From Pseudovibrio ascidiaceicola (GTDB taxonomy: Bacteria; Pseudomonadota; Alphaproteobacteria; Rhizobiales; Stappiaceae), in contig NZ_FOSK01000006.1 of the NCBI RefSeq assembly GCF_900114245.1, forward strand, positions 62,001-126,000: DNA of 64,000 nt, read 5' to 3'. Every line of letters begins with the position of its first letter. Position 1 is the first letter of the stretch. This document shows positions 5,283 to 54,768 of this stretch, in pieces. The position numbers were made by a program, and so were the translations under genes. A model generated the notes under the pieces. It was given only the letters and a program-made list of their open reading frames with translations. It had not been told where the DNA came from and made no database searches.

Positions 5283-5521
5283 CGGAGTGCTCCCTCAAAT
5301 ACTTCGGATTCTTATTGAGATTAGAAAATGAACCTCACTTTGGCCCAGTGCAGTGAAATATTGCAAGAGCAAATCAATCGCAAAAGGGTCAGTTGAGTAA
5401 AATTAAATGAACTGCCAATGTGGCTCCTTAACTAACCCGAGGACCGCTTAATCACGCTAAGTTATTGCTGACGTCAGGTCACATATTGCAGTTTGTTCAA
5501 CTTCAGCAGCAGTGAGGCAGT

Positions 5522-5887: not shown

Positions 5888-5901
5888 TTGGCACTCTTGC
5901 T

Positions 5902-6555
5902 TCAGGCAAATGCGTAGACGGATGTCTTTTTAGTCTCGTTGTCTTCGAGCTCTCGTTGCACCGGAATTTCATAGGTTTTCAGGTGGGTGAGACGTGAAGT
6001 TGGAAAGTAGGAGCGTTGAGGATCTCCGACTAAAACCGGAATTGGTTTTTCCTTAGGATTGGTGTCTAGCCAACTAAGAACCCTTATGGTCATATCCGGG
6101 TCGTAAAAGACATCGCCGCAGCAAATCAGGTCGTAATTACCAAGAGAGCTTCCCAGAAGATCTTTAGTGCTGACTTGAATTGTAACCTGATTCAGGTTTG
6201 CGTTGATAAGTGCGGCATCTGCAGCGAAGAGATCTATGTCTGCTGCGATAGCTGAGGCTGCTCCGGCTTTCATTGCGGCGATGGCAACGAGGCCTGAGCC
6301 GCTGGCGAAATCGAGGATGTGTTTGTCTTTAACAGTCTCGGGATTGTCGAGAATGTAGCGGGCCAGTGCTTGTCCACCCGCCCATGCAAATGCCCAGAAC
6401 GGGGAAGGGACTCCCAGCTCTTCCAGCTCCTCTTCACCCATGCGCCAGAGATCGACGCTTTCGTCTGCCAGGTGAAGAAGTATGGACGGCGCATGAGGAA
6501 CAGGATGACTTCGTGTCTGCTCCAAAATAAATGCGCGCCGGTCCGTAATTGTCAT
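5902..6555 (-). CDS. Class I methyltransferase, ETF-beta lysine methyltransferase-like (METTL20 family)
   Basis: The 217-residue protein has the SAM-binding glycine motif D-F-A-S-G-S-G-L near residue 86 and the family-specific stretch P-F-W-A-F-A-W-A-G-G-Q-A-L around residue 52, which marks the group containing human ETFBKMT and its alphaproteobacterial homologue. Members methylate lysines of the electron-transfer flavoprotein beta subunit. The D-V-F-Y-D-P motif corresponds to the seven-beta-strand lysine methyltransferase post-II motif. Its start is six bases from the EVE gene's stop, so the two are cotranscribed. No ETF gene is in the window. Confidence 0.75.
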   Translation of the reverse strand: MTITDRRAFILEQTRSHPVPHAPSILLHLADESVDLWRMGEEELEELGVPSPFWAFAWAGGQALARYILDNPETVKDKHILDFASGSGLVAIAAMKAGAASAIAADIDLFAADAALINANLNQVTIQVSTKDLLGSSLGNYDLICCGDVFYDPDMTIRVLSWLDTNPKEKPIPVLVGDPQRSYFPTSRLTHLKTYEIPVQRELEDNETKKTSVYAFA

Positions 6556-6561
6556 CGGTAC

Positions 6562-6990
6562 TTAGACCTCTGATGGGTCCATGCCTGCCATTTCCAGAAC
6601 AACGGCCCATTCTTCCGGCTTTACCGGCTGAACAGAAAGACGCATGGACGTTACGAGAGCCATGTCGGAAAGACGTTCTTCGGCCTTCACTTGCGCCAGC
6701 GTTACTGTCTGCGGAAGGTCTTTGACGGCTTTGATGTCTACGCATTCCCAGCGTGGATCATCTGTCGTGGAATCTGGATGTGCGAGCGCGCAGACCTCTA
6801 CGATGCCGACAACTTCTTTGCCGATGTTGGAATGGTAGAAGAAGCCACGGTCACCGATTTTCATGTCGCGCATGAAGTTGCGGGCCTGATAGTTGCGTAC
6901 GCCGTCCCACTCTTCGCCTTCTTCACCCTTGGCTTTTTGATGATCCCAGGACCACTTGTTAGGTTCGGATTTGAACAGCCAGTATTGCAA
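6562..6990 (-). CDS. EVE domain protein
   Basis: A 142-residue EVE domain fills the protein: the opening Y-W-L-F-K-S-E-P-N-K-W-S-W is the family hallmark, followed by W-D-G-V-R-N-Y-Q-A-R-N and the F-Y-H-S-N strand. EVE domains are PUA-like folds thought to bind modified nucleobases. I chose a TTG at 6990 because GGAGG stands five bases ahead and the protein then begins as in relatives; an ATG lies four codons upstream at 7002 with a poorer site. It is paired with the downstream methyltransferase gene. Confidence 0.85.
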   Translation of the reverse strand: MQYWLFKSEPNKWSWDHQKAKGEEGEEWDGVRNYQARNFMRDMKIGDRGFFYHSNIGKEVVGIVEVCALAHPDSTTDDPRWECVDIKAVKDLPQTVTLAQVKAEERLSDMALVTSMRLSVQPVKPEEWAVVLEMAGMDPSEV

Positions 6991-7003
6991 CTTTGCCTCC
7001 ATT

Positions 7004-7040
7004 AAAAAGAGCACCTGCCTACAATGAGAGACTGGTGCTC
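7004..7040 (-). terminator. Terminator of the YciI-like gene
   Basis: On the minus strand GAGCACC (7040-7034) pairs with GGTGCTC (7015-7009) and is followed by five T residues. It sits between the YciI-like gene and the EVE gene. Confidence 0.65.
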
Positions 7041-7073
7041 CAAAATTGACGTGTTGTAATACTTACAACAAAA

Positions 7074-7364
7074 TTAGGCTTCCGGGTTCTTAATTACCCA
7101 GTTCCAAGGACGGATCTCAACAGATTCAAAGAGACCTGCCAGTGAATAAGGATCTTCATTAGCTACTGCCAATGCTTCGTCCCTGTTCGCGGCTTCAATC
7201 ATGACCAGCGAACCTGTCGGAGATACGAGGTCATCACACATGAAAGGTCCCGCTGCCTTCAAACGATCACCAAGACCTTTGAGGAAATCGAGATGATCTT
7301 GACGTGTTTTTTGGCGAAGGTCTTCAGAATGCGCCTTATCAGTGCAGATGAGAGCGTACAGCAT
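7074..7364 (-). CDS. YciI family protein
   Basis: The 96-residue single-domain protein has the YciI pattern: a first strand M-L-Y-A-L-I-C-T, the D-H-L-D-F-L segment with the conserved His near residue 25, and a closing P-W-N-W. The fold is a dimeric ferredoxin-like barrel. Most members have no established reaction, so only the family can be named. It lies downstream of gpsA on the same strand, 85 bases away, and has its own terminator. Confidence 0.85.
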   Translation of the reverse strand: MLYALICTDKAHSEDLRQKTRQDHLDFLKGLGDRLKAAGPFMCDDLVSPTGSLVMIEAANRDEALAVANEDPYSLAGLFESVEIRPWNWVIKNPEA

Positions 7365-7449
7365 ATTGGATACTCCAGTAGCAGGTTTTCAACCTAACCA
7401 TTTGATCCCTGATATACAACCAGGCAATTCCTAGCTTAAAAGGATTCTA

Positions 7450-8460
7450 CTAGGGGTGTGTCTCTCGTTTGAGGGGGCGCGTCATTAAGTCGCTCAATGC
7501 CTGTGCGACGTCGATTTTCCCAGCTACGATTTGTGACACGGTGTTTGCAATTGGCATGTCGACACCATGTTCGGTTGCCAAGGCGACCGCGATATTAGCG
7601 GAGTGAGCGCCTTCTGCAAGCTTTTGTCCCGGTGCAACCAATTCCTGCGGAGTTCTACCCTGTCCGATCTTTAAGCCGAAGGCAAAATTTCGTGATTGAG
7701 TTGAGGAACATGTGAGGACCAAGTCGCCAAGACCAGACAGACCTGTGAGCGTTTCGCTTCTGGCATTGAGTGCCATGCCGAGGCGGCTCAGTTCTGCGAA
7801 GCCGCGGGCTGTCAGTGCTGCCTGTGCGCTGGCACCGAGGCCGTAGCCGACGGCTGCGCCACAAGCGATTGCGAGCACGTTTTTGAGAGCGCCACCAATT
7901 TGTACGCCGATGAGGTCATCAGTTGCGTAAGGGCGGAAGCTTTTTGAGGCGAGTGCTGCGGAAAGCTGATCTGCTACTGCGCCGTCTTCAGCTGCAATTG
8001 TGACGGCTGTTGGCAAGCCCTTTGCCACGTCATGCGCGAAGCTTGGGCCAGACAGCGCTGCGGGAATGGCATCTGGCGCGACGGACTTGATCACCTCAGA
8101 AAGGAGCTGACCGGTTGATTGCTCGATGCCTTTTGCGCAGAGAACGATTGGTGTCGCTGGCTTTAGAAACGGCTTGATCGCTTCTGTCATCGCCCGGGTT
8201 GTCTGCGCTGGTGTTACAAGCAAGAGGGCATCGGCACCGCTGACAGCATGCTTGAGGATGCCGGTAGCGGTGATTTGCTCTGTCCACTCAATGCCGGGCA
8301 GGTATTTCGGGTTCTGTTTGTTGGCATTGATTGCGGCGATGGTTTCTGCATCGCGGGCCCATAAGGAGACTTCCCGACCTGCTCTTGCGGCTGCCAAGGC
8401 GAGCGCAGTTCCCCAAGATCCTCCGCCAATTACAGCGATCTTGTTTAGAGCAGTGGTCAT
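7450..8460 (-). CDS. gpsA: NAD(P)-dependent glycerol-3-phosphate dehydrogenase
   Basis: The 336-residue enzyme reduces dihydroxyacetone phosphate to sn-glycerol 3-phosphate, the first step of phospholipid synthesis. The Rossmann motif G-G-G-S-W-G-T-A-L is at residue 12, and the catalytic lysine lies in the family signature G-G-A-L-K-N-V-L-A-I-A-C-G in the second half. Length and motifs are normal for GpsA. The Nudix gene ends ten bases upstream, so the two form an operon. In many alphaproteobacteria gpsA sits close to tsaD, as here. Confidence 0.95.
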   Translation of the reverse strand: MTTALNKIAVIGGGSWGTALALAAARAGREVSLWARDAETIAAINANKQNPKYLPGIEWTEQITATGILKHAVSGADALLLVTPAQTTRAMTEAIKPFLKPATPIVLCAKGIEQSTGQLLSEVIKSVAPDAIPAALSGPSFAHDVAKGLPTAVTIAAEDGAVADQLSAALASKSFRPYATDDLIGVQIGGALKNVLAIACGAAVGYGLGASAQAALTARGFAELSRLGMALNARSETLTGLSGLGDLVLTCSSTQSRNFAFGLKIGQGRTPQELVAPGQKLAEGAHSANIAVALATEHGVDMPIANTVSQIVAGKIDVAQALSDLMTRPLKRETHP

Positions 8461-8470
8461 GTTGTTTTCC

Positions 8471-8953
8471 TTATTGGGTGATGTTCAGTCGTTCACACAG
8501 TTGCTCAAGAGGGATATCGAACCCTCCGTGCATTGTTAGCTTGGACTTAGTTTCGTTGTCTGCCAAATCAACCCAGAAGAAGCGAAAGAGGATAGGATCT
8601 CCACCGTCATTTGGGCTCATTTCGTAATGATCCCAAGTCTGCTTTGCTTTTTCCTGAATTTTGAGATGGAAAAATTTGCGGCGGTGTAGCTCTGGACCTG
8701 AAGTGAGGGCATCGTCATACAGGAAGTCATGGCCAGTGAATTGCTCAAGTGCGCCGGAAACACTGAGGCCTGTTTCTTCTTCAAACTCGCGTTTGGCAGC
8801 TTGCAGATAGCTTTCACCCGGATCCAGTGTTCCACCTGGCACCTGCAATGTGCCTGCGATGTCGGTTTCCGGTTCATCAAAAACGAGAAGGTGTGTGCCG
8901 CAGGTCATATAGACGTAGGCTTTGTGCCGAGGCTGCAATGTCGTTTCCACCAT
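8471..8953 (-). CDS. Nudix hydrolase
   Basis: The 160-residue protein carries a full Nudix box around residues 42-64 (G-G-T-L-D-P-G-E, then R-E-F-E-E-E-T-G-L), the Mg-binding helix that cleaves nucleoside diphosphate-X bonds. The rest is not informative about substrate. It is the first gene of a unit with gpsA, and its promoter should lie in the structured region upstream (8954-9534). Confidence 0.88.
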   Translation of the reverse strand: MVETTLQPRHKAYVYMTCGTHLLVFDEPETDIAGTLQVPGGTLDPGESYLQAAKREFEEETGLSVSGALEQFTGHDFLYDDALTSGPELHRRKFFHLKIQEKAKQTWDHYEMSPNDGGDPILFRFFWVDLADNETKSKLTMHGGFDIPLEQLCERLNITQ

Positions 8954-9534
8954 GAATCAATCAAATCGATGTTGTTTGAATTTGGCAGATGTTATTTGCA
9001 GGAGTTTGTTGCAAGCAAGGCGTTATAGCAGTTTGCACATAAATAGCAGTATGACACGCGCTTTAGCGCCGCATGGCTTTGCCTGCAGCGTGGAACTGAA
9101 TGCCCCGAAAGTTCGGGAGTGAGCAAGGCGAGCAGGCAGAGCCTGCGCATTGTGAGTAAATTAGTTTCTTCGGCATTGGCTGCTCGCCTTGCCCGGGCGT
9201 TTTTGTATGAAACAAGATCTCCTCCGAAAGGCATTGGGAGCAGGCACTGTCAACGATGCACACACTTGCCAGAGGCAAATGTGATTGTCGGTGAAAGCTA
9301 AACGCCTGCCAGTGTAGACGCCCATCGGGTGACCAGCTTCCGCTTGGTCCCTGCACTAAAGACTTTCAAGGGGTGTTTCAACGAACCCGCCGGGTGATGC
9401 GTTACTTCACCCGGTAGCCCCGCCCAGCCCACGCCGCACTGATGGACGGTCCACCAGCTGCCCGAATACGTGAGCACAACACTGAGAATAAGCGCGGTTG
9501 AGGGCAGGGGGATAAGTTTTCAATGTTCCAATCC
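8954..9534. other. Gene-free region rich in inverted repeats; candidate structured RNA(s)
   Basis: No credible protein gene lies here, but the stretch is full of stems: GCGC/GCGC at 9058-9069; CCCGAA/TTCGGG at 9104-9117; a perfect 12 bp pair at 9123-9134 and 9181-9192 enclosing GCAGGC/GCCTGC (9132-9146); a GCCCGGGC block then TTTTT at 9191-9204; CACA-TTGCC/GGCAA-TGTG at 9261-9283; a GGGTGACCA/TTGGTCCC stem at 9327-9351; CCGGGTGA/TCACCCGG at 9390-9414; and TGGAC/GTCCA at 9443-9453. It is bounded by the tsaD terminator. I looked for the conserved cores of RNase P RNA, SRP RNA and tmRNA and did not find them. The coding strand of any RNA is unclear. Confidence 0.5.
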
Positions 9535-9561
9535 TAAAAAATCCCGCAGTTACTGCGAGAT
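9535..9561 (-). terminator. Terminator of tsaD
   Basis: On the minus strand ATCTCGCAG and CTGCGGGAT form a 9 bp stem with a TAA loop (one wobble pair), followed by six T residues. It stands about 40 bases beyond the tsaD stop. Confidence 0.9.
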
Positions 9562-9599
9562 CCTGAGAGGTATGCATGCTGATTGCTTTCGTAGGTTGA

Positions 9600-10715
9600 T
9601 TAAACCTTCGCGCCTTTGCGACCGAAACCAACGACGCTTTCGGAGATTTTGTCTAGCGGCCAGCGTGGGCGTGGGGCTTCGTTCATGTCGTCGCCCTTGC
9701 CGTTTTGCTCCAGAATGGAAGGGTCTTCGGCAACGAGTTTTCTCAGACGCTCTGCTCCCGCCCATGCAATCATTGCGGCGTTGTCTGTGCACAGTTTGTG
9801 CGGCGGTGCGATTAATTCTGCACTATGTTCTGCGGCAACCTCGTTTAGACGAATCCTAATTGCTTCGTTTGCTGCAACACCGCCCGCGATAACCATTTTG
9901 ACAGGCGTATCCGGATAGCGCTCTTTGAATAACTCGAAGGCTCGTGCACTGCGTTTTCCGAGGACATCCGCGACAGCTTCCTGGAAGGAGGCGCACAGGT
10001 TGTTGACGGTTTGCTCGCTGACAGGCTCTTCTTTTAAGGCTGCGGTGCGCACTGCGGTCTTCAACCCGGCAAAAGACATGTCGAGGCCGGGGCGGTCCAA
10101 AAGTGGGCGTGGCAGTTTGTAGACGGTTGGATCACCAAGTTTTGCAGCTTTTTCTACAGCCGGACCACCGGGATAAGGCAGACCTAGCAGTTTGGCTGTT
10201 TTGTCAAACGCTTCACCAATCGCGTCATCAATGGTTGTGCCCAATCTTTCGTATTCCCCAAGAGCTTTTACGAGGAGATACTGGGTGTGACCACCGGAGA
10301 CGAGGAGCAACAGGAATGGGAACTCAACCTGATCCGTCATACGTGCGGTGAGAGCGTGACCTTCCAAATGATTCACTGCAATCAATGGTTTATCGATTGC
10401 CATGGCAATGGATTTTGCTGTCATCAAGCCTACGATGACGCCGCCAATGAGGCCGGGGCCAGCGGTTGCAGCAACTGCGGATAGATTAGAGTACTTCACA
10501 TTTGCTGTTTTCATCGCCTGATCTACGATACCATCCAGCAACTGAATGTGGGCGCGCGCCGCAATCTCTGGTACAACACCGCCGAACGGTGTGTGCTCAT
10601 CGATTTGAGAATGCACCACGTTGGACAAAATTACGCATTTGCCATCTTGATCAATCTCAAGGACAGCAGCGGCAGTTTCGTCACAACTCGTTTCTATGCC
10701 GAGGATGGTCAGCAC
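9600..10715 (-). CDS. tsaD: tRNA N6-adenosine threonylcarbamoyltransferase
   Basis: TsaD transfers the threonylcarbamoyl group to A37 of ANN-decoding tRNAs, together with TsaB and TsaE. The ASKHA-fold protein starts with [13 protein letters not shown] and has the metal-binding N-H-L-E-G-H, the S-G-G-H-T nucleotide loop, and [11 protein letters not shown] place the start at GTG 10715, where AAAGGAGA stands six bases ahead; the frame stays open for 30 further codons upstream but without this site. This gives 371 residues, slightly longer than the E. coli protein, as usual in alphaproteobacteria. It diverges from hemC. Confidence 0.95.
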
Positions 10716-43705: not shown

Positions 43706-44398
43706 ATGGATTGGAATGAGACCTATCACCAAACTATGACCAACCAGAGTTTTCAGCGCGCCAGATCTGCCGAAGCGAAGGCACAGCGCCATAATGATCT
43801 TATACGTGCCGCAACTTGCGTGCTTGAGCAGGACGGCGTAGATGGACTGACCTTGCAGGCGATTGCCAGCCGTGCAGGTATCGTGAAATCCAACATTTAC
43901 CGGTATTTTGAAACGCGGGAAGCCATTCTGGTTGAGTTGCTGCTGCGTGATTTTGTGAAGCTGATTGAAGATCTGGAGCAGGAAGTTCCGGGTGAGATGG
44001 CTCCTGCTGATATGGCGAAGCTTCTGGCTGAGATGTTTGCCTCTCGTCAGGTGTTATGTGAGCTGATGAGTGAAATTGCTCCGACAATGGAGAAGAATAT
44101 CTCCATTGATTGTGTGCGTGATTTCAAACGCGCATTGCTGGCTGAGGCTGCCCGGGCAACGAGTGCTTTGCAAAAAGGGTTGCCGTGGCTTGAGGCTGAA
44201 GAGGCGATGAGTGTCTTCTTCAGCATTCATGTGTTCGTTGCCGGACTATGGCCAGTGACTAATCCACCGCCAGTTCTGGTGACACTCTACGAAGAGCCTG
44301 AGTTTGCTCCACTCAAGTACGAATTTGCTCCGGCTTTGTTCGGCATGATCACCGCGCACCTGCTGGGCTTAGAGGCAATGAAAAAGCTCAGCGCATAA
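43706..44398 (+). CDS. TetR/AcrR family regulator
   Basis: The 230-residue protein has an N-terminal TetR helix-turn-helix (G-L-T-L-Q-A-I-A-S-R-A-G-I-V-K-S-N-I-Y-R, then Y-F-E-T-R-E near residue 70) and a helical ligand domain. It diverges from the molybdenum hydroxylase operon and probably represses it until the substrate appears. ATG 43736, ten codons on, is another possible start. Its 3' end overlaps the convergent phnN by 11 bases. Confidence 0.88.
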   Translation: MDWNETYHQTMTNQSFQRARSAEAKAQRHNDLIRAATCVLEQDGVDGLTLQAIASRAGIVKSNIYRYFETREAILVELLLRDFVKLIEDLEQEVPGEMAPADMAKLLAEMFASRQVLCELMSEIAPTMEKNISIDCVRDFKRALLAEAARATSALQKGLPWLEAEEAMSVFFSIHVFVAGLWPVTNPPPVLVTLYEEPEFAPLKYEFAPALFGMITAHLLGLEAMKKLSA

Positions 44399-44981
44399 AT
44401 GCCGTGATTGCTTGTTCCAGTTGCTTGATGCCGTCCTGAGGGTCGTTTGTGTTTTGTATTTCCACCAGATGCGGTAGTTCCGGTAGCGAAAGATCTGCGC
44501 GCCTCAGACGTTGCTCGATATCCTCTGTGGTTTCGCGGCCTCTCATGGACAGGCGTTGCGCGAGCACGTGGATTGGTGCTGTGATATGTACGACCAGCAG
44601 TTTCTCATACTTGCCAACGGCTTCTGCCAAGGCTTTTCGTGAGCCATTTGCAATGGCAATCCCGCCCTTGGCGATGTGGTGATCGACGCATTCCGGCAGA
44701 GCGTAGGTCAATCCATGAGCAGGCCACGATAATGCTACTCGTCCCTGATCTATGAGCTCCGACATGTCTTCGTGGCAGACTGCTTCGTGCGGTTCGGAAC
44801 CAGCATCCGCAGGGCGGGTGATCAGGCGACGGGCGAACATGATGTTTGCATCGCCTTCACACTGCTCTTTATAGCCGTAAATCAGTGTATCTTTGCCTGC
44901 GCCACTTGGCCCAACGACCATGATCAGTGCGCCAGGGCCAAGTTTTTTTGCTTGCTCCTGAGCTGTATCTAAAACCGTCAC
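44388..44981 (-). CDS. phnN: Ribose 1,5-bisphosphate phosphokinase
   Basis: The 197-residue kinase has a guanylate-kinase-like fold with Walker A V-V-G-P-S-G-A-G-K-D near residue 19 and the R-x-x-x-R-P / E-P-H-E region after it. PhnN makes PRPP from ribose 1,5-bisphosphate, the last step of C-P lyase ribose recovery. Start is GTG 44981, with GAGGGGGA six bases before it. It is the last gene of the phn operon. Confidence 0.92.
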   Translation of the reverse strand: MTVLDTAQEQAKKLGPGALIMVVGPSGAGKDTLIYGYKEQCEGDANIMFARRLITRPADAGSEPHEAVCHEDMSELIDQGRVALSWPAHGLTYALPECVDHHIAKGGIAIANGSRKALAEAVGKYEKLLVVHITAPIHVLAQRLSMRGRETTEDIEQRLRRADLSLPELPHLVEIQNTNDPQDGIKQLEQAITAFMR

Positions 44982-45007
44982 GATAGATCCCCCTCTCATC
45001 AGCTGTG

Positions 45008-46201
45008 CTATGCGACGCGATATCCTTCGCGCCAGACACCACGGACGATTGGCACGTCGCCAACCATTCGCACTTGCACAAGGTCCGCGCGGCGACCAAC
45101 TTCCAGTGCGCCGCGATCTGTAAGGCCGACAGCCTCTGACGGGATCTTGGTTACCTTTTGTACGGCTTCGGGAATGGAGATGCGCTCAATTTGCTGGGCC
45201 AGCAAGAAGGCTGCTTGCAGAAGGGAGACTGGCACGTAGTCAGAAGACAGAACGTCCAGATAGCCTGCCTCAGCCAGCTCTCGTGCAGAGATGTTACCGG
45301 AATGAGATTTGCCGCGTACCACGTTTGGAGCACCCATCAGCACAGCCATACCAGCTTCGTGTGAGGCCTTTGCCGCTTCCATGGTGGTTGGGAACTCAGC
45401 GACGTTGATGCCAAACTTGTTTGCTTCCTCAACGTGGGCAAGGGTCGCGTCGTCATGGCTGGCCAGCATCATGCCTGCAGCTTTGGCGCGGTCTGCGATC
45501 GCAAGGCGGTTCTTATCGGAGTTGCGATCTGCACGGGCCTGCATTTGCAGCATGAACTCCTGCATTTGCTCGTCCGAGAAACCCTTCTTGGTTTTGTAGT
45601 AAAGCTCGAACTGATCCAGAGAGGTGAACTGGCGTTGTCCTGGCGTGTGGTCCATAAGTGAGGCTAATCGAACGCGTGGATCGTCGTTGAACAGTTCAAA
45701 GCCTTCCACACAATTGTCGGCGGAAACTTCGCAGCGTAGATGGATGTAGTGGTCAGCGCGCAGGCGGCCTTCCTGCTGGCCGATCTCGATTGCATCGGCC
45801 ATGGCTCGCATGTCTTGTGCTGTCAGGTCTGCATCATCTTCCATTCCAACGCGCAGGGCATCGAACACGGTGGTGATGCCGGAGCAGGCAATCTGTGCGT
45901 CGTGGGCCTGCACGGCAGAGACTGCATTCCATGTGACGCCAGGGCGTGGCTTGTAGTGGTTTTCGAGATGATCGGTATGCAGTTCGACGAGACCGGGGAT
46001 GAGGTAGTCGCCTTCACAGTCCAATGCGTTGGATGTGGTGCCGTCGCTTAAATCGCTGATCATGCCATTTTCGACTGCCAGTGTGCCTTCCAACATCTGA
46101 TCAGGCAGGATCAGTTTTGCGTTGGTGAAGGTCATTGGTGTATGCGGCTCGACCATTGTTGATGTCTGATGTGGCGCTTCGCCGACTAATACATCGCTCA
46201 T
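45008..46201 (-). CDS. phnM: RPnTP hydrolase (alpha-D-ribose 1-methylphosphonate 5-triphosphate diphosphatase)
   Basis: The 397-residue amidohydrolase-fold enzyme removes diphosphate from ribose 1-alkylphosphonate 5-triphosphate in the C-P lyase pathway. Metal ligands are visible in P-G-L-V-E-L-H-T-D-H-L-E near residue 75, and S-H-D-D-A-T near 250. Its ATG overlaps the stop of the DUF1045 gene (ATGA), supporting the start with a short N-terminal extension relative to E. coli PhnM (378 residues). Confidence 0.94.
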   Translation of the reverse strand: MSDVLVGEAPHQTSTMVEPHTPMTFTNAKLILPDQMLEGTLAVENGMISDLSDGTTSNALDCEGDYLIPGLVELHTDHLENHYKPRPGVTWNAVSAVQAHDAQIACSGITTVFDALRVGMEDDADLTAQDMRAMADAIEIGQQEGRLRADHYIHLRCEVSADNCVEGFELFNDDPRVRLASLMDHTPGQRQFTSLDQFELYYKTKKGFSDEQMQEFMLQMQARADRNSDKNRLAIADRAKAAGMMLASHDDATLAHVEEANKFGINVAEFPTTMEAAKASHEAGMAVLMGAPNVVRGKSHSGNISARELAEAGYLDVLSSDYVPVSLLQAAFLLAQQIERISIPEAVQKVTKIPSEAVGLTDRGALEVGRRADLVQVRMVGDVPIVRGVWREGYRVA

Positions 46202-46896
46202 GCTACTTGTCCTTCCAATGGTCTTATTTCAATGACTTGAAATGGCGCGCCAGCCTCTGGTTCTACGCAGAGGGCGAGGTGCGAAATGGAGATTGGTTGA
46301 TGAATGACAGGCTTGAAGTGGTCTTCTGCGGCAGCTTGGAGCGCTTTGCGTTCCGCTTCTTCTTCCAGCCGTTTTGACAGGGTCATGTGGAAATGGAAAT
46401 GCTTGAAAATGTAGGGGTAACCCCACTCCAGCATATAGGCATCCTGCTGTGGTGTCAGGTTTGCCTTGCGGCGTCGTTCAATGTCTTGTTCGCTTAAAGG
46501 TGCGCGAAGATGATCGAACTGTTTGATACATTGCGCTGCCAGCCCGTTGAGCTGGTCTGATGGCTGTGTCGGTGTCAGAGCCAGAAATTTGCCGAGGAAG
46601 TTTGGCGCCAATCCTTCGATGGTGAAGGCAGATGTTTGTTTGGCGAACGCACTGAAAGCCGCTTTCGCATCTTCCTGTGATTTGCCTTCGGCCAAATGAA
46701 ATGGCGGTTTCATAGTGGCGTGGAAGCCATAGCGACGTGCATCTTCGGTAATTGAGTGCAAGTGCGCAGGCTCAAACTCGTTCAAGTGCGGGTGCGCGAG
46801 GCTGTCATTGGAAAACGCCGAGCGCCCGAGCCATTGGCTCCCTAATTCTGTGAGTTTGGCTGATTGTGGGTGTGTGAAATAGATTGAGTAACGCAT
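46198..46896 (-). CDS. DUF1045 phosphonate-operon protein, 2H phosphoesterase-like
   Basis: The 232-residue protein belongs to the family of phosphonate-operon proteins annotated DUF1045. It has two H-x-T motifs, H-A-T-M (near residue 52) and H-M-T-L (near residue 170), the catalytic pair of the 2H phosphoesterase superfamily that opens cyclic phosphodiesters. The window has no phnP, whose product hydrolyses 5-phosphoribosyl 1,2-cyclic phosphate, while phnN, the enzyme acting just after PhnP, is present. I infer that this protein does the PhnP step. Start at ATG 46896; coupled to phnM by ATGA. Confidence 0.82.
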   Translation of the reverse strand: MRYSIYFTHPQSAKLTELGSQWLGRSAFSNDSLAHPHLNEFEPAHLHSITEDARRYGFHATMKPPFHLAEGKSQEDAKAAFSAFAKQTSAFTIEGLAPNFLGKFLALTPTQPSDQLNGLAAQCIKQFDHLRAPLSEQDIERRRKANLTPQQDAYMLEWGYPYIFKHFHFHMTLSKRLEEEAERKALQAAAEDHFKPVIHQPISISHLALCVEPEAGAPFQVIEIRPLEGQVA

Positions 46897-46954: not shown

Positions 46955-47578
46955 TCAGGCTGGTTCGAAGTGTTCCAGAAACCTTTCCACAGCCATCGAT
47001 TGAAACAGAGGGAGGCGCTCGAAGATTTTATCCTCTGGCCAATCCCACCATTTGAGTTTGATCAGTCGATCAGCAGCTTCCTTGGAGAATCTTCGTTTGA
47101 TCGGTTTAGCCGGAACTCCGCCCACGATGGTGTAGGGTTCCACGTTTTTTGCAACCACTGCGCCTGCTGCGAGGATCGCGCCGTCGCCAATTTTTACGCC
47201 GGGTAGCACGGTTACGCCGTGTCCGATCCAAACATCATTGCCGATAGTGACACGCGCAGCTCTGCGGTCAGCAAAGAACTGGTGATCCCGTTCTTTATCT
47301 TCCCGGTAGTATTCTGGTGTGTAGGTAAAGCGATGTTGGGAAACCCGCTCCAAGGGATGATTGGGAGGACCAAGGCGAACATTGGATGCAATGGCCGTGA
47401 ACTTGCCGATTGTGGTGTCCGCAACCGTCGAGTTCGGGCCAATGTAGGAGTAGTCGCCGATCTCACAATATTCCAGATAGGTTGGACCAAGCACTTCGCA
47501 TTGCTTGCCAATCGCAGCCTCTCGATGGGTGACGGTTGACTCGATGACCGTCTCCGCAATTTTGGGGGGCTTTGTCAT
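46955..47578 (-). CDS. Phosphonate-operon hexapeptide-repeat acyltransferase
   Basis: The 207-residue left-handed beta-helix protein shows many hexapeptide turns (G-P-T-Y-L-E, G-D-Y-S-Y-I-G, I-G-N-D-V-W-I-G-H-G) and the G-P-P-N-H-P catalytic histidine region of the xenobiotic/chloramphenicol acetyltransferase group. Such proteins are common in alphaproteobacterial phn operons. It may N-acetylate aminophosphonates, the job of PhnO in E. coli, which is absent here. That function is inference. Confidence 0.85.
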   Translation of the reverse strand: MTKPPKIAETVIESTVTHREAAIGKQCEVLGPTYLEYCEIGDYSYIGPNSTVADTTIGKFTAIASNVRLGPPNHPLERVSQHRFTYTPEYYREDKERDHQFFADRRAARVTIGNDVWIGHGVTVLPGVKIGDGAILAAGAVVAKNVEPYTIVGGVPAKPIKRRFSKEAADRLIKLKWWDWPEDKIFERLPLFQSMAVERFLEHFEPA

Positions 47579-47620
47579 GGAGCGAGTTTCCCTTCTCTGC
47601 ATATCGCTTTCGGATATGCT

Positions 47621-48331
47621 TTATGCAGCCGACGCGAATGAAGTTACGTCGATGATCCGGTCCGCAATGGCATCACGAACGTCATGATCGTGAAGAATGC
47701 CGACCATTGCTACACCTTGCGTTTTCTTCTCTTCCACCAGCTCAACGACAACGGCTCGGTTTGCTGCATCAAGTGAGGCGGTTGGTTCGTCGAGAAGAAG
47801 GATCGGGTAGTGCGCGATGAAACCGCGGGCGATGTTGACGCGTTGCTGTTCTCCGCCCGAGAAAGTTGCTGGTGGTAACTGCCAGAGGCGCTCTGGCACA
47901 TTGAGGCGGGAAAGCAAGTTGCCAGCGCGCTCAAACGCTTCGTCTTCTGCAACGCCTTGCGCCATGAGAGGTTCGGCAACCAGCGTGAGTGCTGGGACGC
48001 GTGGGATTGCGCGGAGGAACTGTGAGACGTAACCGATTGTGGTTTCGCGCAGGCGGATAATGCGGCGCGGAGTTGCGTCGGCTACGTTGACAATCTCATC
48101 ACCATCCGTGATCAGGATCTGCCCTTTTTGGCAACGGTAGTTGGCGTAGATCATTTTCAGAATTGAGCTTTTACCCGAACCTGACGGACCGCCAAGAACC
48201 ACACATTCTCCTGCTGAAACGGAGAAGTTTACACCGGAGACGACCGGGATTTCCAAGCCATCTCGCAAGTGCATCTTGAAGGACTTGGCAAGGTCAGAAA
48301 CAAGCACCTTGGTTTTAGGAGTGTTTGTCAT
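47621..48331 (-). CDS. phnL: C-P lyase subunit PhnL (ABC-type ATPase)
   Basis: This 236-residue ABC ATPase has Walker A G-G-P-S-G-S-G-K-S-S, signature F-S-G-G-E-Q-Q-R-V and Walker B L-L-L-D-E-P-T-A-S-L-D. It is not a transporter part: PhnL works with PhnK and the PhnGHIJ core of carbon-phosphorus lyase. Start at ATG 48331; a longer frame overlapping phnK lacks family support. Confidence 0.93.
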   Translation of the reverse strand: MTNTPKTKVLVSDLAKSFKMHLRDGLEIPVVSGVNFSVSAGECVVLGGPSGSGKSSILKMIYANYRCQKGQILITDGDEIVNVADATPRRIIRLRETTIGYVSQFLRAIPRVPALTLVAEPLMAQGVAEDEAFERAGNLLSRLNVPERLWQLPPATFSGGEQQRVNIARGFIAHYPILLLDEPTASLDAANRAVVVELVEEKKTQGVAMVGILHDHDVRDAIADRIIDVTSFASAA

Positions 48332-48341
48332 TGTCTTGTCC

Positions 48342-49139
48342 TTATGGCTGCAAGATGGAGGAGACGAGGAGCTGGGTGTAGCTCTCTTGCGGGTCATCCA
48401 GCACTTGGTCTGTCAATCCGCTTTCGATCACGTGACCGTGGCGCATCACCAGAATACGGTGAGAGAGCAGGCGGGCTACTGCGAGATCATGAGTTACGAT
48501 GATCACGGAGAGACCGAGGTCGGCGACAAGACCGCGCAGGAGGTCCAGCAAGCGTGCCTGAACAGACACATCCAAGCCGCCAGTTGGTTCGTCCATGAAG
48601 ACCAGCTGTGGGGCGGTGACGAGGTTGCGGGCGATCTGGAGACGTTGGCGCATTCCGCCGGAGAATGCGCGTGGGTCATCGTCAATGCGGTCTTCTGCAA
48701 TCTCAACGCGGCCGAGCCAATCGGTTGCAGTGTCGCGGATGTTACCGTAGTGCCGAGCACCAACTGCCATCAGGCGTTCACCCACATTGGCCCCTGCAGA
48801 GACAGTCATGCGCAATCCGTCTGCTGGATGCTGGTGGACAAAACCCCAATCGGTGCGCATGAGCATGCGTCTCTCGGCTTCGCTCATTTCATAAAGGTTG
48901 CGCATCTGGCCCATGCGGTTGCGATAGTTGACCGAACCTGAGGTCGGGGTGAGGCGCGTTGCAAGGCTGTTGAGCAGCGTTGTTTTGCCCGAGCCACTCT
49001 CGCCTACAATTGCAAGCACCTCACCCGGATAGAGATCGAAACTGACGTCTTTACAGCCGATGCGACCGCCATAGAGCTTTGTCGTGTTACTGACCTGAAG
49101 CAGTGGAAGGTCTTCAGAACTTTGAATATCCATGGACAT
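48342..49139 (-). CDS. phnK: C-P lyase subunit PhnK (ABC-type ATPase)
   Basis: The 265-residue ABC ATPase has Walker A V-G-E-S-G-S-G-K-T-T, the PhnK-typical T-D-W-G-F-V-H-Q-H-P-A-D-G-L Q-loop region, signature F-S-G-G-M-R-Q-R, and Walker B F-M-D-E-P-T-G-G. PhnK dimers bind the PhnJ face of the C-P lyase core. Its start overlaps the phnJ stop (TAATG). Confidence 0.94.
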   Translation of the reverse strand: MSMDIQSSEDLPLLQVSNTTKLYGGRIGCKDVSFDLYPGEVLAIVGESGSGKTTLLNSLATRLTPTSGSVNYRNRMGQMRNLYEMSEAERRMLMRTDWGFVHQHPADGLRMTVSAGANVGERLMAVGARHYGNIRDTATDWLGRVEIAEDRIDDDPRAFSGGMRQRLQIARNLVTAPQLVFMDEPTGGLDVSVQARLLDLLRGLVADLGLSVIIVTHDLAVARLLSHRILVMRHGHVIESGLTDQVLDDPQESYTQLLVSSILQP

Positions 49140-50050
49140 TAGTCGTTTCCTTCTGCTTCCAGAGGATTGGTTCCAAGGTGGCCGACATGACCGGCATCGC
49201 GGCGTTCCTCGCAGAAATCACTGTCGGAGCACACGAACATGCGGTTGCCATCGTCATCCAGAATGACTTCATCCAGATAGACCTCTTCTGCGCCACAGAT
49301 TGCGCAGGGTTGTTCGAACTTAGTCACTTCAAATGGATGGTCCTCAAAATCGAGGCTCACCACTTTGGTGTGTGGCGGGATGGCGTAGATGCGCTTTTCG
49401 CGGCCTGCTCCGAACAGTTGAAGTGCTTCCATCTGGTCCATCTTCGGATTGTCGAACTTTGGTGTTGGAGAAGGGTCCATCACATAGCGGTCCTGCACCA
49501 TGACCGGGTAGGCGTAAGCCGTTGCGATGTGACCGAACTTTGCGATGTCCTCGTAGAGCTTCACATGCATAAGGCCGTATTCTTCCAGCGCGTGCATCTT
49601 GCGGGTCTCGGTTTCACGTGGTTCCAGAAAGCGGAGTGGTTCAGGGATTGGAACCTGATAGACGAGCACTTGATCCTTTGTGAGAGTTTCTTCCGGGATG
49701 CGGTGGCGAGTCTGGATGATGCTGGCGTCTTTTGTCTTTGTGGTGGTGTCTACGCCAGTTGTTTCGACAAAGAAGTTGCGCAGGGCGACCGCGTTTGTCG
49801 TGTCGTCTGAGCCTTGATCGATCATCTTCAGGCAATCGTTCTTGCCGATGACTGCGGCAGTCACTTGTACACCGCCGGTTCCCCAGCCGTACGGCATTGG
49901 CATTTCGCGGGCAGCGAAAGGAACCTGATAGCCAGGGACCGCAATGCCTTTGAGGATTGTGCGGCGGATCATGCGTTTGGTTTGCTCATCCAGATAAGCG
50001 AAGTTGTAATGCTCGCCGGAGATGCCTTGTGTTTCAACGCGCTCGGTCAT
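49139..50050 (-). CDS. phnJ: C-P lyase catalytic subunit PhnJ (radical SAM)
   Basis: The 303-residue enzyme cleaves the carbon-phosphorus bond of 5-phosphoribosyl 1-alkylphosphonate, giving an alkane and ribose 1,2-cyclic phosphate 5-phosphate. The unusual cluster motif is intact: C-A-I-C near residue 255, then cysteines in F-V-C-S and D-F-C-E, spaced C-x2-C-x21-C-x5-C. The N-terminal Y-N-F-A-Y-L-D-E-Q-T-K-R segment is strongly conserved. Start overlaps the phnI stop. Confidence 0.96.
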   Translation of the reverse strand: MTERVETQGISGEHYNFAYLDEQTKRMIRRTILKGIAVPGYQVPFAAREMPMPYGWGTGGVQVTAAVIGKNDCLKMIDQGSDDTTNAVALRNFFVETTGVDTTTKTKDASIIQTRHRIPEETLTKDQVLVYQVPIPEPLRFLEPRETETRKMHALEEYGLMHVKLYEDIAKFGHIATAYAYPVMVQDRYVMDPSPTPKFDNPKMDQMEALQLFGAGREKRIYAIPPHTKVVSLDFEDHPFEVTKFEQPCAICGAEEVYLDEVILDDDGNRMFVCSDSDFCEERRDAGHVGHLGTNPLEAEGND

Positions 50051-51162
50051 TGTGCTGCCTCCGCTACGAGTTCCTGTTCAGCTGCTTCGCGTTTCTCTTG
50101 CCACTCTTTTCGCACCTTGCGGATCAGCTCCAGTTCTGACTGGAAGTCGACGTAGTGCGGGAGCTTGAGGTGTTCTACGAAGCCAGTGGCCTGCACGTTG
50201 TCTGAGTGAGACAGGACGAACTCCTGATCTTGTGTCGGGGAGTCGATTTCTTCGCCCAGCTCTTCAGCTCGCAAAGATCGATCCACCAGAGCCATTGCCA
50301 TGACTTTGCGTTCTCCCTGACCGGGGACCAGACCGTAACCGCGAGTGAACTGCGGTGGTGCGGAAGCGGAGCCCTGGAACTGGTTGATCATCTGGCATTC
50401 GGTGACTGTCATTGTGCCAAGAGGAACTTCGAAACCCAGCTCTTCCATGAAGAAGTCAACTTCGACTTCCCCAAGACGGATTTCGCCTGCGAACGGGTGC
50501 GTTCTGCCAAAACCGCGCTGGGTGGAGTAACCAAGTGCCAACAGAAAGCCTTCGTCGCCGCGAGCGAGGTTCTGCAAGCGTAGGTCACGATCAGCTGGGA
50601 AGGTGAGCGGTTCGCGGGTGATGTCTCCTACTGGAGTATCGGGTGCGATTGGCTCATCCGGCTCGATCAGACCTTCATCATTGAGAAGGTCAGTGACACG
50701 GGGAACCACCTCTTCCTTCTCGAACTCCTGTGTTTCTGGTGCTGGTGCTTCCCCATCAGCAGCCAGCTTAAAATCGAGAAGGCGCTGGGTGTAATCGAAG
50801 GTTGGGCCAAGCAACTGTCCGCCGGGGAGGTCCTTATAAGTCGCGGAAATTCGGCGGCGGATCAGCATCTTGGCAGTGTCGATTGGTTTGGAGTATCCGA
50901 AGCGTGGCAGCGTAGTCCTATAAGCGCGCATCAGGAAAGCAGCTTCGATGAGATCGCCGCGAGATTGCTTGATACCGAGTGCTGCCAGTTCTGCGTCAAA
51001 GAGAGATCCTTCTGCCATCACACGGGAGACAGAGAGGTAAAGCTGTTCGGAGATTTGCTTAAGCCCGAGTGATGGTACACTGGTGTCGCCGCGACGATCC
51101 CGTGCCATGAGCTTGTGAGCGTTACGGATGGCTTTCTCGCCACCTTTCACAGCAACATACAT
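50047..51162 (-). CDS. phnI: C-P lyase subunit PhnI
   Basis: PhnI (371 residues) attaches the phosphonate to ribose of ATP, displacing adenine, with help of PhnG, PhnH and PhnL. The opening M-Y-V-A-V-K-G-G-E-K-A-I and the R-G-F-G-R-T-H-P-F segment near 225 are family hallmarks. The end overlaps phnJ by four bases and the start lies three bases from phnH, so the whole row is one operon. Confidence 0.95.
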   Translation of the reverse strand: MYVAVKGGEKAIRNAHKLMARDRRGDTSVPSLGLKQISEQLYLSVSRVMAEGSLFDAELAALGIKQSRGDLIEAAFLMRAYRTTLPRFGYSKPIDTAKMLIRRRISATYKDLPGGQLLGPTFDYTQRLLDFKLAADGEAPAPETQEFEKEEVVPRVTDLLNDEGLIEPDEPIAPDTPVGDITREPLTFPADRDLRLQNLARGDEGFLLALGYSTQRGFGRTHPFAGEIRLGEVEVDFFMEELGFEVPLGTMTVTECQMINQFQGSASAPPQFTRGYGLVPGQGERKVMAMALVDRSLRAEELGEEIDSPTQDQEFVLSHSDNVQATGFVEHLKLPHYVDFQSELELIRKVRKEWQEKREAAEQELVAEAAQ

Positions 51163-51165
51163 GAG

Positions 51166-51798
51166 TTAAGCCTCCAAACCGGTGATTTTAATGGAGCGGG
51201 GCAGGCCTGCGACCTGATTGGCTCCGGCGAAAATGACGTCGATGCCGAGGGGATAGAGCGCGCTGTTGTCTTGCATCTGCTGCCAGAACATTGCAGGTGT
51301 GGGAGCGACGTTGAACTGCTGCTCTGTTTTGATACCCGGGCCTTTTAACGTGATGCCGTCGTCCTCAGTGAGCTCATCGACCATTAGGATAATTGTGGTT
51401 GAACGGTCTGGATATTCGGCAGTGCCAGCGGAAAAACTTGCGACCGCTGGGAGTAGTTTTGCGTCCGAGACCAGCGCAAAAGCAGCTTCTGCCGGGCTTT
51501 CAACGAAGGGTGCTGCAGTGTGGAAACGGATGTAATTCTTGACAGTTTCGCTCGCTGCCAGCGCAGGATCCAGCCAGAGTGGCGTGTCATAATCGCAAAG
51601 TGTCAATACGAGCGCAGTTGCAGCTATAGACAGCGGAGCCGGTGGGTTCAGCTTGAGATCGTCCAGTTGCTGCACAGTGCCTGGTTGAGCCAGTGCGTTC
51701 ATAGCGGAGCGGAATACGGACTGTGCGTCGTGGACTGGATCTGCCAGGCCCGGAGCGGGCGCTTTAGCAAAGATTGAGGAGGCTGTTTGCGTGCTCAT
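51166..51798 (-). CDS. phnH: C-P lyase subunit PhnH
   Basis: PhnH is a PLP-transferase-like fold without PLP that completes the PhnGHIJ core. The 210-residue protein has the F-R-S-A-M-N-A-L-A-Q-P-G-T motif near residue 30 and T-L-C-D-Y-D-T-P-L-W-L near 70. ATG 51798 has GGGGAGAG in front, and overlaps the phnG stop region (TAATATG). Confidence 0.93.
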   Translation of the reverse strand: MSTQTASSIFAKAPAPGLADPVHDAQSVFRSAMNALAQPGTVQQLDDLKLNPPAPLSIAATALVLTLCDYDTPLWLDPALAASETVKNYIRFHTAAPFVESPAEAAFALVSDAKLLPAVASFSAGTAEYPDRSTTIILMVDELTEDDGITLKGPGIKTEQQFNVAPTPAMFWQQMQDNSALYPLGIDVIFAGANQVAGLPRSIKITGLEA

Positions 51799-51799
51799 A

Positions 51800-52270
51800 T
51801 TACTCTCCCCGTACCATGGTGAAGAAATCAACTTTGGTGGCAGCGACTTCAGCGCGTGTTTCGTTTTCCGCTTGTTCCTGAGTGCTGGCCAGAGGCTGCA
51901 GAACCTTCGTCTCAATGAGATCACGGTGTTCTGATTGCTGCCAGAGCGCGTCTACCAAGGCGGCCTGTAGAACCTTTTGCTTGTCGCGACCAAGAGCCTG
52001 ACCAAATCCGGTGGTGCCATCGTCCAGAGCGATGACGCATCGTGTGACGGTTGCCTCGCACATGTTGAAGGGGGCACCTGTGCCACCGGCGCGGCCACGA
52101 ACCATCACAAGTCCGATTTCCGCCGGGCGGATAACGGTATAGTTCGGTTCTAAGCTGAGGTTTTTCCACGTTTCTGCAAGGTCTTGCGCTGAGGCCTTTG
52201 CCAGAATGCCCATGGCACTCTGCCTAGCTGCAATTTCCGGTGATTGCTCTTTGAGCGAACTTGCCGTCAT
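51800..52270 (-). CDS. phnG: C-P lyase subunit PhnG
   Basis: The 156-residue first subunit of the C-P lyase core. Visible family features are the Q-S-A-M-G-I-L-A-K-A start, the G-L-V-M-V-R-G-R-A-G-G-T-G-A-P-F-N-M-C-E-A block and V-A-A-T-K-V-D-F-F-T-M-V-R-G at the end. ATG 52270 follows AAAGGGG. It opens the operon that runs to phnN; divergent from phnF. Confidence 0.94.
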   Translation of the reverse strand: MTASSLKEQSPEIAARQSAMGILAKASAQDLAETWKNLSLEPNYTVIRPAEIGLVMVRGRAGGTGAPFNMCEATVTRCVIALDDGTTGFGQALGRDKQKVLQAALVDALWQQSEHRDLIETKVLQPLASTQEQAENETRAEVAATKVDFFTMVRGE

Positions 52271-52389
52271 TTCAGCCCCTTTAACTTTCAGGAACACACT
52301 GGTTCTCTGGCATTGTGTGGTGACGCCCTGTGGTTTCACGGAGAACTGTGTCTGGGCGCCTGAATTTGGTTGCTAAGCTAGAACTAATG

Positions 52390-52409: not shown

Positions 52410-52453
52410 ATATTTTGCTCGCCAACTGATTAGTGTTGTTTCATGACGAAGGC

Positions 52454-53206
52454 ATGACGAATGCGATGAAATTTGATTTTTCTCCTGTTGAGCGACGTGC
52501 GGGCGTTGCCATGTGGAAGCAGATTGCTGAAGTACTGCGCTCTGAGCTTTCTCGAGCTGAGGTTTCTGAGGGGGAGAAAATCCCAACAGAACAAGAGCTT
52601 GCTCATAGTTTCGAGGTCAACCGCCATACTGTTAGACGTGCGATTTCCACTCTGATTGAAGAAGGTTTTTTGCGCTCAGATCAAGGACGTGGAACATTTG
52701 TCGCAAAGGCGCCATTGGTCTATCCAATCGGGCCGCGTACGCGGTTTTCGGAGAACTTGTCTGGTCAGGCGCAGGAGGTTTATGGGGATATCTTCCGCAT
52801 AACCGAAGTGGCTGCAGATGCGTACACATCGGAGTTGTTGGAGGTTGAACCGGGCACTGCGTTGTTTAAATGCGAATCCGTAAGTTATGCAGATGGCACG
52901 CCGGTTATTGCAGGAACGCGCTGGTTTGAGGTCTCTCGTTTTCCCAATCTGCCTTCAGATTTGAATGAGACCAACTCGATCACCAAGATCATGGAGAAGT
53001 ATGGTTTTGGCGATTATCGGCGTCAGGAAACCCGGATTACGGCAGCGCTTTGTAGTGCGCAGAATGCTGAATTGCTTAAGATTTCCGAGGGGGCGCCTGT
53101 GCTTGTGATGGAATCTATCAATGTGACTGCCAGTGGTGAGCCTATACAAATTGGTCGTGCCTATGTGGCTGCTGACCGGATGCATTTAACAGTCAGAAAT
53201 GACTAG
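52454..53206 (+). CDS. phnF: Phosphonate utilisation repressor PhnF (GntR, HutC subfamily)
   Basis: The ~250-residue regulator has an N-terminal winged helix (I-P-T-E-Q-E-L-A, then V-N-R-H-T-V-R-R-A-I) and a UTRA effector domain (about 95-245). It diverges from phnG and very likely represses the operon through the inverted repeat at 52390-52409. The start is uncertain: ATG 52454, TTG 52433 and ATG 52469 are all in frame, none with a well-placed SD. Confidence 0.88.
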   Translation: MTNAMKFDFSPVERRAGVAMWKQIAEVLRSELSRAEVSEGEKIPTEQELAHSFEVNRHTVRRAISTLIEEGFLRSDQGRGTFVAKAPLVYPIGPRTRFSENLSGQAQEVYGDIFRITEVAADAYTSELLEVEPGTALFKCESVSYADGTPVIAGTRWFEVSRFPNLPSDLNETNSITKIMEKYGFGDYRRQETRITAALCSAQNAELLKISEGAPVLVMESINVTASGEPIQIGRAYVAADRMHLTVRND

Positions 53207-53214: not shown

Positions 53215-54768
53215 TTAGAGCCAGTACTTGGGTGCTTCTACGGCGGCGTTCCAACGTTCTTGAGCTTCCAGCCATGCGTTGTCGGTGCGGGCCTGATGCC
53301 AGCCAGCGACAAAGCCGATGACCGTTGAAACCTCGTTGTTTTGCAAGGATTGCGGAAGTTTCATCGCGACCAGACGATCTGCCATGGCAACATCGTTCAG
53401 GTAGCCGAAGGTATTTTGCAGGCGTTTCAGGCACTTGAGGAAGATGCGCAGGTCTTCTGGTTCATAGAGAGAGCGGAAGAATTCAACCGTATAACGCAGT
53501 TTTTTGAGCGCTTTGCGGAGATCGTGTCGTTGCTCAATGGTGAGGTCCTGCAAGTTCTCTGCGCGCTTTTCGCAGGCCTTCCAGCGCTTGGATAATGCGT
53601 GCTGGGCGAAAACTTCGATTGGTAAGTCCAATTTCTTGAACTCACTTAGTCCCAGGTTCTCTTTCCAGGCTGGGCTGTGTGCGAGCTCTCCCAATTGGAG
53701 TAGGAAGTTGTTGAGTTTTGGATCGATCAGTTCTTGTCTCAGTTCGACTTGTGCTTCCACATGCGCCAATTGAATGGCCTCAAAGAGAGGCTCTACAGAA
53801 TGTGTGTCTGGCAATAACGGAATGACGGGTGTGATGATATCTTCCACCAGCACATCGATATCCCTTTGATTTCCTGCAGTTGTTGCCAGTTGCTTTGCGG
53901 AGGCATCGAGTTCAGCGATGGTGTTATTGTTCGGAAACGCCGCTTTGTAGATGTTGAACGCACTTCTTAATCTGCGCAGTCCGACACGTAACTGATGTGG
54001 GCCTTCAGAGATATTTTGTTGAAGGACGCAAGAGCGGTTGGCGACGATTTGGTTGAGGCATTCGTTGAGGATTTTTTGGAAGGCTGAGCCTGCGTTATCT
54101 TCTGGCTCTAACTCTATGTAGTTGGAGTGGAGCGCTTCTGATGGGAGCTCAGGTGGTTCACCACTTGCCAGTCGGTAGCCAATGCCTGCTTTGTTGCTGT
54201 TGGAAAACAGAATTGGTCGATCTTTCATGAGGGCGCTTGCCAGCTTGTACAAGCTTTCGACCGGGCCTTCCATGAGTTCCAGCTCTACTTCATGGATCGG
54301 ATGTTCTTCGGAGGTTGTTTTGGCTATGCCGGAATCCAACGCCACTTCAATCTTCGCACCTGCTTTGTCCGTATAATAGGCCAAAGTGCGCGTGATGGCG
54401 GTTTCGAACAGAACTCCCCATTCTTTACCTTCCAGCAGAGATATGAGCTGTTGCTTGATTTCATTATCAGAAATCACGCTGAAGTCTGGCTCAATTCCTT
54501 CAATTGGCAGTTCCAGCTCGATCCTTTTGGAGAGCCCGGACTGCATGCCACCACCTTGTTTGATGGTTTGCAGCCAATTGGTGCCGTTATGGCGTGTTCG
54601 TAGTGAGATACGGGCTTTCTTGAGCGTGTGATCTGGCGTGTCATAATACACGGAACGGAGACGTTTTACGGATTGCTCACTGACTGCAAAGCCTTTTGGC
54701 GGTTTTGCTTTAGCCAGTTGCTCCAGAGTTGTTTCGTCTACAGAAAGCTTAAGCTCAATCTCGTGCAT
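53215..54768 (-). CDS. CYTH-CHAD domain protein
   Basis: The 517-residue protein joins a CYTH triphosphate-tunnel domain (E-I-E-L-K at residue 3, R-L-R-S-V-Y-Y-D-T near 38, S-L-R-T-R near 55) to a CHAD domain from about 230 (L-R-V-G-L-R-R-L-R-S-A-F, later L-R-K-A-L-K-K-L-R-Y) whose basic helices bind polyphosphate. Members hydrolyse inorganic triphosphate. It lies convergent to phnF, nine bases apart, so the link to phosphorus metabolism is suggestive only. Confidence 0.92.
   Translation of the reverse strand: MHEIELKLSVDETTLEQLAKAKPPKGFAVSEQSVKRLRSVYYDTPDHTLKKARISLRTRHNGTNWLQTIKQGGGMQSGLSKRIELELPIEGIEPDFSVISDNEIKQQLISLLEGKEWGVLFETAITRTLAYYTDKAGAKIEVALDSGIAKTTSEEHPIHEVELELMEGPVESLYKLASALMKDRPILFSNSNKAGIGYRLASGEPPELPSEALHSNYIELEPEDNAGSAFQKILNECLNQIVANRSCVLQQNISEGPHQLRVGLRRLRSAFNIYKAAFPNNNTIAELDASAKQLATTAGNQRDIDVLVEDIITPVIPLLPDTHSVEPLFEAIQLAHVEAQVELRQELIDPKLNNFLLQLGELAHSPAWKENLGLSEFKKLDLPIEVFAQHALSKRWKACEKRAENLQDLTIEQRHDLRKALKKLRYTVEFFRSLYEPEDLRIFLKCLKRLQNTFGYLNDVAMADRLVAMKLPQSLQNNEVSTVIGFVAGWHQARTDNAWLEAQERWNAAVEAPKYWL

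Follow-up and report, generated by a model that had tools for sequence, protein, structure and literature searches.

Among the ways in which bacteria exploit phosphonates, the carbon-phosphorus (C-P) lyase pathway is an important one, and methane is set free when methylphosphonate is its substrate. In Escherichia coli, the subunit PhnJ releases 5-phosphoribosyl 1,2-cyclic phosphate (PRcP), which is then opened by PhnP (TIGR03307, phosphoribosyl cyclic phosphodiesterase), an enzyme we take to be of the metallo-beta-lactamase type. The pathway described in PMC3463581 leads from PhnJ through PRcP to ribose 1,5-bisphosphate and on to PhnN. A different arrangement appears in PMC3840354 (2013), where E. 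coli deleted for phnHIJKLMNOP could grow on methylphosphonate when given a rhodobacteral fosmid that lacks phnP and carries a 2H gene, "sometimes referred to as RcsF"; that paper considers the 2H protein likely to play the PhnP role, and the fosmid result is not gene-specific. The same role was proposed for DUF1045 in PMC8235418 (2021), which cites a 2014 review by Hove-Jensen and others, and the proposal is repeated in PMC5649143. A survey of 54 operons in PMC10574752 (2023) counted phnP in 27 and rcsF in 16 without phnP, while PMC10132767 names a "Putative C-P lyase DUF1045" among the proteins raised under phosphorus limitation. The idea that DUF1045 stands in for PhnP is therefore already published (2013, 2021, 2023), the 2H protein "RcsF" of these papers being taken here to belong to the TIGR03223/DUF1045 family. 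Our searches of open-access literature listed no enzyme assay of a DUF1045 protein. What we add to the cited papers is a larger census, qualified by phylogeny, together with a high-confidence fold prediction, a clade whose active sites have mutated naturally, and loci where the enzyme is kept although the lyase is gone.

We analyzed a 64,000-nucleotide stretch of the Pseudovibrio ascidiaceicola genome (hereafter the window), and focused on a gene of the DUF1045 family at 46198-46896, which very probably encodes a 2H phosphoesterase that does the job of PhnP, judging from its predicted fold, the gap in the pathway and the pattern across genomes. A first-pass annotation of this DNA had placed the gene at these positions without giving a strand; it lies on the minus strand, and the plus strand has stops. 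The gene order of the operon is phnG, H, I, J, K, L, a hexapeptide transferase gene, DUF1045, phnM and phnN, all on the minus strand. Profile matches identified phnG (51800-52339; TIGR03293, 159.8 bits, covering ORF residues 37-179), phnH (51166-51924; TIGR03292, 192.8 bits, covering ORF residues 60-245), phnI (50047-51162; PF05861, 538.2 bits), the C-P lyase subunit gene phnJ (49139-50050; PF06007, 488.9 bits), phnK (48342-49139; TIGR02323, 398.9 bits), phnL (47621-48397; TIGR02324, 335.1 bits, the ORF extending upstream of the matched domain), phnM (45008-46201; TIGR02318, 488.5 bits, and NF011983, 589.5 bits, both over cut-off) and phnN, the ribose 1,5-bisphosphokinase gene (44388-44999; TIGR02322, 188.8 bits, cut-off 156). 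The annotated content, phnG-H-I-J-K-L-M-N without phnP, was thus borne out, with the addition of the phosphonate-operon hexapeptide transferase (46955-47602; TIGR03308, 249.4 bits, cut-off 201.65), which had gone unmentioned. The ATGA coupling of DUF1045 to phnM was likewise found, as an overlap of the DUF1045 stop with the phnM start at 46198-46201 (minus strand). Divergent from the operon is a phnF-type GntR/UTRA regulator gene (52433-53206, plus strand; TIGR02325, 240.4 bits, cut-off 156.8), which is adjoined by a CYTH-CHAD protein gene (53215-54768, minus strand).

The 232-residue product matched TIGR03223 as its sole NCBIfam family (264.6 bits, cut-off 248.95, residues 1-228) and Pfam PF06299 (DUF1045; 193.8 bits, cut-off 24.3, residues 61-220), whereas its match to the 2H family PF13563 was weaker, yet over cut-off (31.8 bits, cut-off 27). 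It is an unstudied member that shares with this family its phosphonate operon setting and its proposed role, nothing notable sets it apart, and it is 48-49% identical to its best named relatives among the matches listed (Roseibium, Stappia). Both H-x-T motifs typical of 2H phosphoesterases are present; the second is where the first-pass annotation had put it (H170-M-T172), but the first is H59-A-T61 and not near residue 52. Among 91 aligned rows, the window included and one divergent clade described below left out, H59 and T61 are conserved in 91, H170 in 90 and T172 in 88.

An AlphaFold2 model of the protein, built with 58 aligned sequences, reached a mean pLDDT of 95.7 and a pTM of 0.89 and has the 2H fold. 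Its best fold matches in the PDB were YjcG, the Arabidopsis cyclic phosphodiesterase and LigT (Z 13.1-15.3), namely Bacillus subtilis YjcG (Z 15.3, rmsd 3.2 over 165 residues), the Arabidopsis enzyme (PDB 1fsi, 1jh6 and 1jh7; Z 13.4-14.9, with rmsd 3.3 over 167 residues at Z 14.9 and Z 13.4 for 1fsi) and E. coli LigT (Z 13.5). Searching the PDB by sequence returned no match at E <= 1 with the single protein, and only 2d4g (E 0.52) with an alignment as query. We know of no phosphonate link for YjcG or LigT. The Arabidopsis enzyme is 15-16% identical to the window protein and acts on ADP-ribose and nucleoside cyclic phosphates; it has a substrate with a ribose 1,2-cyclic phosphate, the ring also present in PRcP. 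The window protein would share with PhnP its reaction and its place in the pathway, although it matches no PhnP model and its own model has the unrelated 2H fold.

We then counted DUF1045 and PhnP across genomes; the first-pass annotation had proposed such a count across phn operons. Of 397 genomes in one even sampling of the window's phylum, 103 had PhnJ over cut-off, 87 had DUF1045 well above chance and 25 had PhnP over cut-off. DUF1045 was present in 76 of the 103 PhnJ genomes and PhnP in 25, with none having both and two having neither. In a second sample of 57 relatives, all 40 genomes with PhnJ had DUF1045, and PhnP was found in 0 of the 57. Together, the 143 PhnJ-bearing genomes divide into 116 with DUF1045, 25 with PhnP, 0 with both and 2 with neither, a strict either-or. 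In the phylum sample PhnN was kept almost throughout, in 74 of the 76 genomes with PhnJ and DUF1045, in 25/25 with PhnJ and PhnP and in 2/2 with neither, and it occurred in 13 of the 294 phylum-sample genomes without PhnJ (all counts at >= 100 bits; G443 and G262, of the PhnJ plus DUF1045 class, fall under the curated cut-off). Three genomes (G000, G021 and G059) were counted in the phylum sample and not among the relatives, and G037, without PhnJ and DUF1045, sits in both. PhnP was counted over its cut-off, in searches that reported matches down to E 1e-25 only. Dropped before counting were PhnJ in G100 (18.9 bits, below cut-off), DUF1045 in G238, G291 and G405 (21-33 bits), and PhnP in G122, G427, G353 and G363 (94-108 bits, below cut-off; all four without PhnJ). 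G006 and G030 were scored as having PhnJ although their copies are broken. PhnJ is in pieces in both genomes (locus L281 in G006), and the DUF1045 frame of G030 also has a TGA, which may reflect decay or sequencing error.

On a PhnJ tree of 73 sequences, the change between DUF1045 and PhnP was needed about twice. This was a quick tree with several long branches, comprising all 25 PhnP-type sequences, both with neither enzyme and part of the DUF1045 type (46 rows). The genomes are therefore far from independent, and the raw Fisher value of 6.2e-22 was rejected as a measure of the strength of the exclusion, which it overstates. The two genomes with neither enzyme (G376 and G379; loci L090 and L091) have phn operons with phnN, and neither PhnP nor DUF1045 was found in their genomes; they group with a PhnP-bearing relative on the PhnJ tree and may be recent losses. 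The earlier wording that a cyclic phosphodiesterase "must fill the step" is accordingly too strong, as two genomes out of the 143 with PhnJ retain PhnN while having neither DUF1045 nor PhnP.

The DUF1045 genes also tend to lie among phn genes. We read 98 DUF1045 loci with flanks of up to about 7 kb, dropping weak neighbour matches to phnK, phnL, phnF, phnM and the transferase by set bit limits, and found phnG-L neighbours in 59, phnM or phnN only (with or without phnF) in 13, phnF or the transferase only in 2, an MnmC-like pair in 8 and none of these in 16. In the phylum sample, 68 of the 76 genomes that carry both PhnJ and DUF1045 had a phn-linked copy; the other 8 showed no phn neighbour within 7 kb, and the stretches of G322 and G324 end at a contig end. 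Similarly, 75 of 80 named loci, taken from at least 593 relatives and filtered for weak neighbour matches in the same manner, had phn genes within 8 kb (phnG-L in 42, phnM or phnN in 33, none in 5). Across the surveyed loci, phnN often adjoins DUF1045. DUF1045 matches also occurred in 146 of 72,556 records of a plasmid collection, 83 of them from Sinorhizobium. None of seven viral-contig stretches that matched the patterns encodes a relative.

In the proposed mechanism, PRcP would be held by the DUF1045 protein in the space between the two H-x-T motifs; as in a model for LigT, H170 would activate water and H59 would protonate the leaving 2-oxygen. The plant-type 2H cyclic phosphodiesterase reaction keeps the 1''-phosphate (PMC5283653). 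If the 1-phosphate is likewise kept when the ribose 1,2 ring of PRcP is opened, the product would be ribose 1,5-bisphosphate, the substrate of PhnN, which is encoded two genes downstream and would convert it to PRPP. These results support the replacement of PhnP by DUF1045 that the first-pass annotation had put forward, given the lack of PhnP over cut-off, the 2H fold and motifs, the either-or with PhnP and the retention of PhnN. If so, the 116 genomes with PhnJ and DUF1045 rely on an enzyme non-homologous to PhnP for this step, and anyone looking just for phnP would overlook a pathway that is in fact complete.

Another enzyme of the cell might instead open the cyclic phosphate and leave DUF1045 with some different task in the operon, and the genome does hold two genes that could be considered. 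The whole-genome search that had been proposed for phnP found none over cut-off in 5.85 Mb (99.82% complete); the best match reached 57.7 bits against a cut-off of 272.25, and the only match at E <= 0.001, separate from the window protein, is a metallo-beta-lactamase gene (G000:C23:196191-196964). A PhnP elsewhere in the genome was rejected on this ground, since the gene lies beside tatD-like and metG-like genes (named from their translations) and fits the generic NF038231 better than PhnP (254.4 versus 60.4 bits, both under their cut-offs). The PhnP search gave matches in 11 of 14 control genomes, of which only the true one in E. coli was over cut-off, and weak matches also in genomes without PhnJ, which argues that weak matches of this kind belong to a widespread family. 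The second gene encodes a further 2H protein, a separate LigT/ThpR-like protein of 183 residues (G000:C31; PF13563, 51.7 bits), and PF13563 matches are likewise present in 11 of the 14 controls. Neither gene explains why DUF1045 travels with phn genes, and we regard this alternative as quite improbable. Less probable still is that DUF1045 is a phosphodiesterase of the pathway but opens the ring so as to leave a 2-phosphate, or that its substrate is a related compound, for example ribose 1,2-cyclic phosphate lacking the 5-phosphate. Substrates and products do vary across the 2H superfamily (PMC5283653), and ribose 1,2-cyclic phosphate built up in an E. coli phnP strain (PMC3463581); against this, PhnN depends on the 1-phosphate, is retained in almost all PhnJ plus DUF1045 genomes and is often the immediate neighbour, and the plant-type reaction retains the phosphate at that position. 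Opening of PRcP to ribose 1,5-bisphosphate by DUF1045 remains the reading we prefer.

The C-P lyase pathway is probably not the sole use of the DUF1045 family, because 13 of the 129 DUF1045-bearing genomes lack PhnJ. Four of these have phnM, DUF1045 and phnN together (G411, L083; G325, L085; G449, L117; G015, L279), and PhnI was sought in the first three and found absent; two more have phnM beside DUF1045 (G154, L076; G057, L280). A wider or older role, in which DUF1045 salvages PRcP from any source and the C-P lyase pathway makes use of it, is compatible with the preferred reading; one such source could be the non-enzymatic breakdown of PRPP. We consider this unlikely but well short of negligible. 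The four trios speak for it, among them the one in G015, from the window's own genus. This locus (5224-8704) is syntenic with the window and has open phnF, DUF1045, phnM and phnN, but the stretch from phnF to DUF1045 lacks phnG-L and the hexapeptide transferase gene; a protein similar to the CYTH-CHAD protein of the window is the same neighbour there (8712-10268). Pairwise dN/dS against the window was 0.067 for DUF1045, 0.067 for phnM, 0.124 for phnN and 0.089 for phnF, with dS near saturation. For comparison, L281, an operon with lyase genes that itself has broken phnJ, phnN and phnG, gave 0.062 for DUF1045, 0.044 for phnM and 0.040 for phnF. G015 is thus slightly less constrained than L281, and since the ratios are taken against an intact operon, they are not datable to after the loss of the lyase and a recent deletion would look alike. 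The G015 locus reflects either a recent loss of the lyase core or a trio with its own use. Counts across the PhnJ-less DUF1045 genomes weigh against salvage, as 7 of the 13 have no phn neighbour within 7 kb and 8 of 11 tested lack a strong PhnN. We also read the central 6 kb of nine stretches around phnN-like genes from genomes without PhnJ (L258-L266); phnN was recognised in seven, and further phn genes in none. Our search for literature on the repair of cyclised PRPP returned only the phosphonate review. A locus without the lyase core in the same genus makes a lyase-free role testable.

The divergent clade consists of eight DUF1045 copies (L078, L087, L088, L089, L092, L164, L166 and L171), all belonging to a single family in the window's order (survey label f24), which we take to be Rhizobiaceae. 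Next to each copy are genes for an MnmC2-type methyltransferase and for an FAD oxidoreductase. In L089, the methyltransferase is over the NF033855 cut-off (254.9 bits), and the oxidoreductase is DAO-type, with ThiO (112.6 bits) as its best NCBIfam match and the MnmC C-terminal model at 62.4 bits, both below cut-off; the neighbours of the other seven copies were named by similarity to L089, and the L087 methyltransferase also by Pfam. In the tree, these eight copies form one clade (100/100) nested among phn-linked copies from that family. All eight differ at R142 and Y160, whereas outside the clade R142 is kept in 88 of 91 rows and Y160 in 91 of 91. Both H-x-T motifs are altered, by at least one residue each, in six of the eight, and the two copies with intact motifs have also lost R142 and Y160, which suggests from the alignment that these two residues bind substrate and were the first to go. 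R142 and Y160 are probably part of the substrate-binding pocket, and the clade is in effect a natural mutant series pointing to candidate substrate-binding residues. More speculatively, phnM-DUF1045-phnN might form a separable salvage module that returns PRcP from other sources, such as PRPP that has cyclised spontaneously, to PRPP and so outlives phnG-L, with the mnmC-linked branch having been recruited beside tRNA-modification genes, having lost its substrate-binding and most of its catalytic residues, and having become a binding or regulatory protein, a picture to which we attach a low probability.

Divergent or extra C-P lyase operons were also encountered at L130, L140, L175 and L282 (PhnJ 379-457 bits). 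The extra operon in G028 has neither DUF1045 nor phnN within the stretch read, while the operons of G130 and G228 each come with DUF1045 and phnN matches; these matches are broken in G228, and phnN is in pieces in L140.
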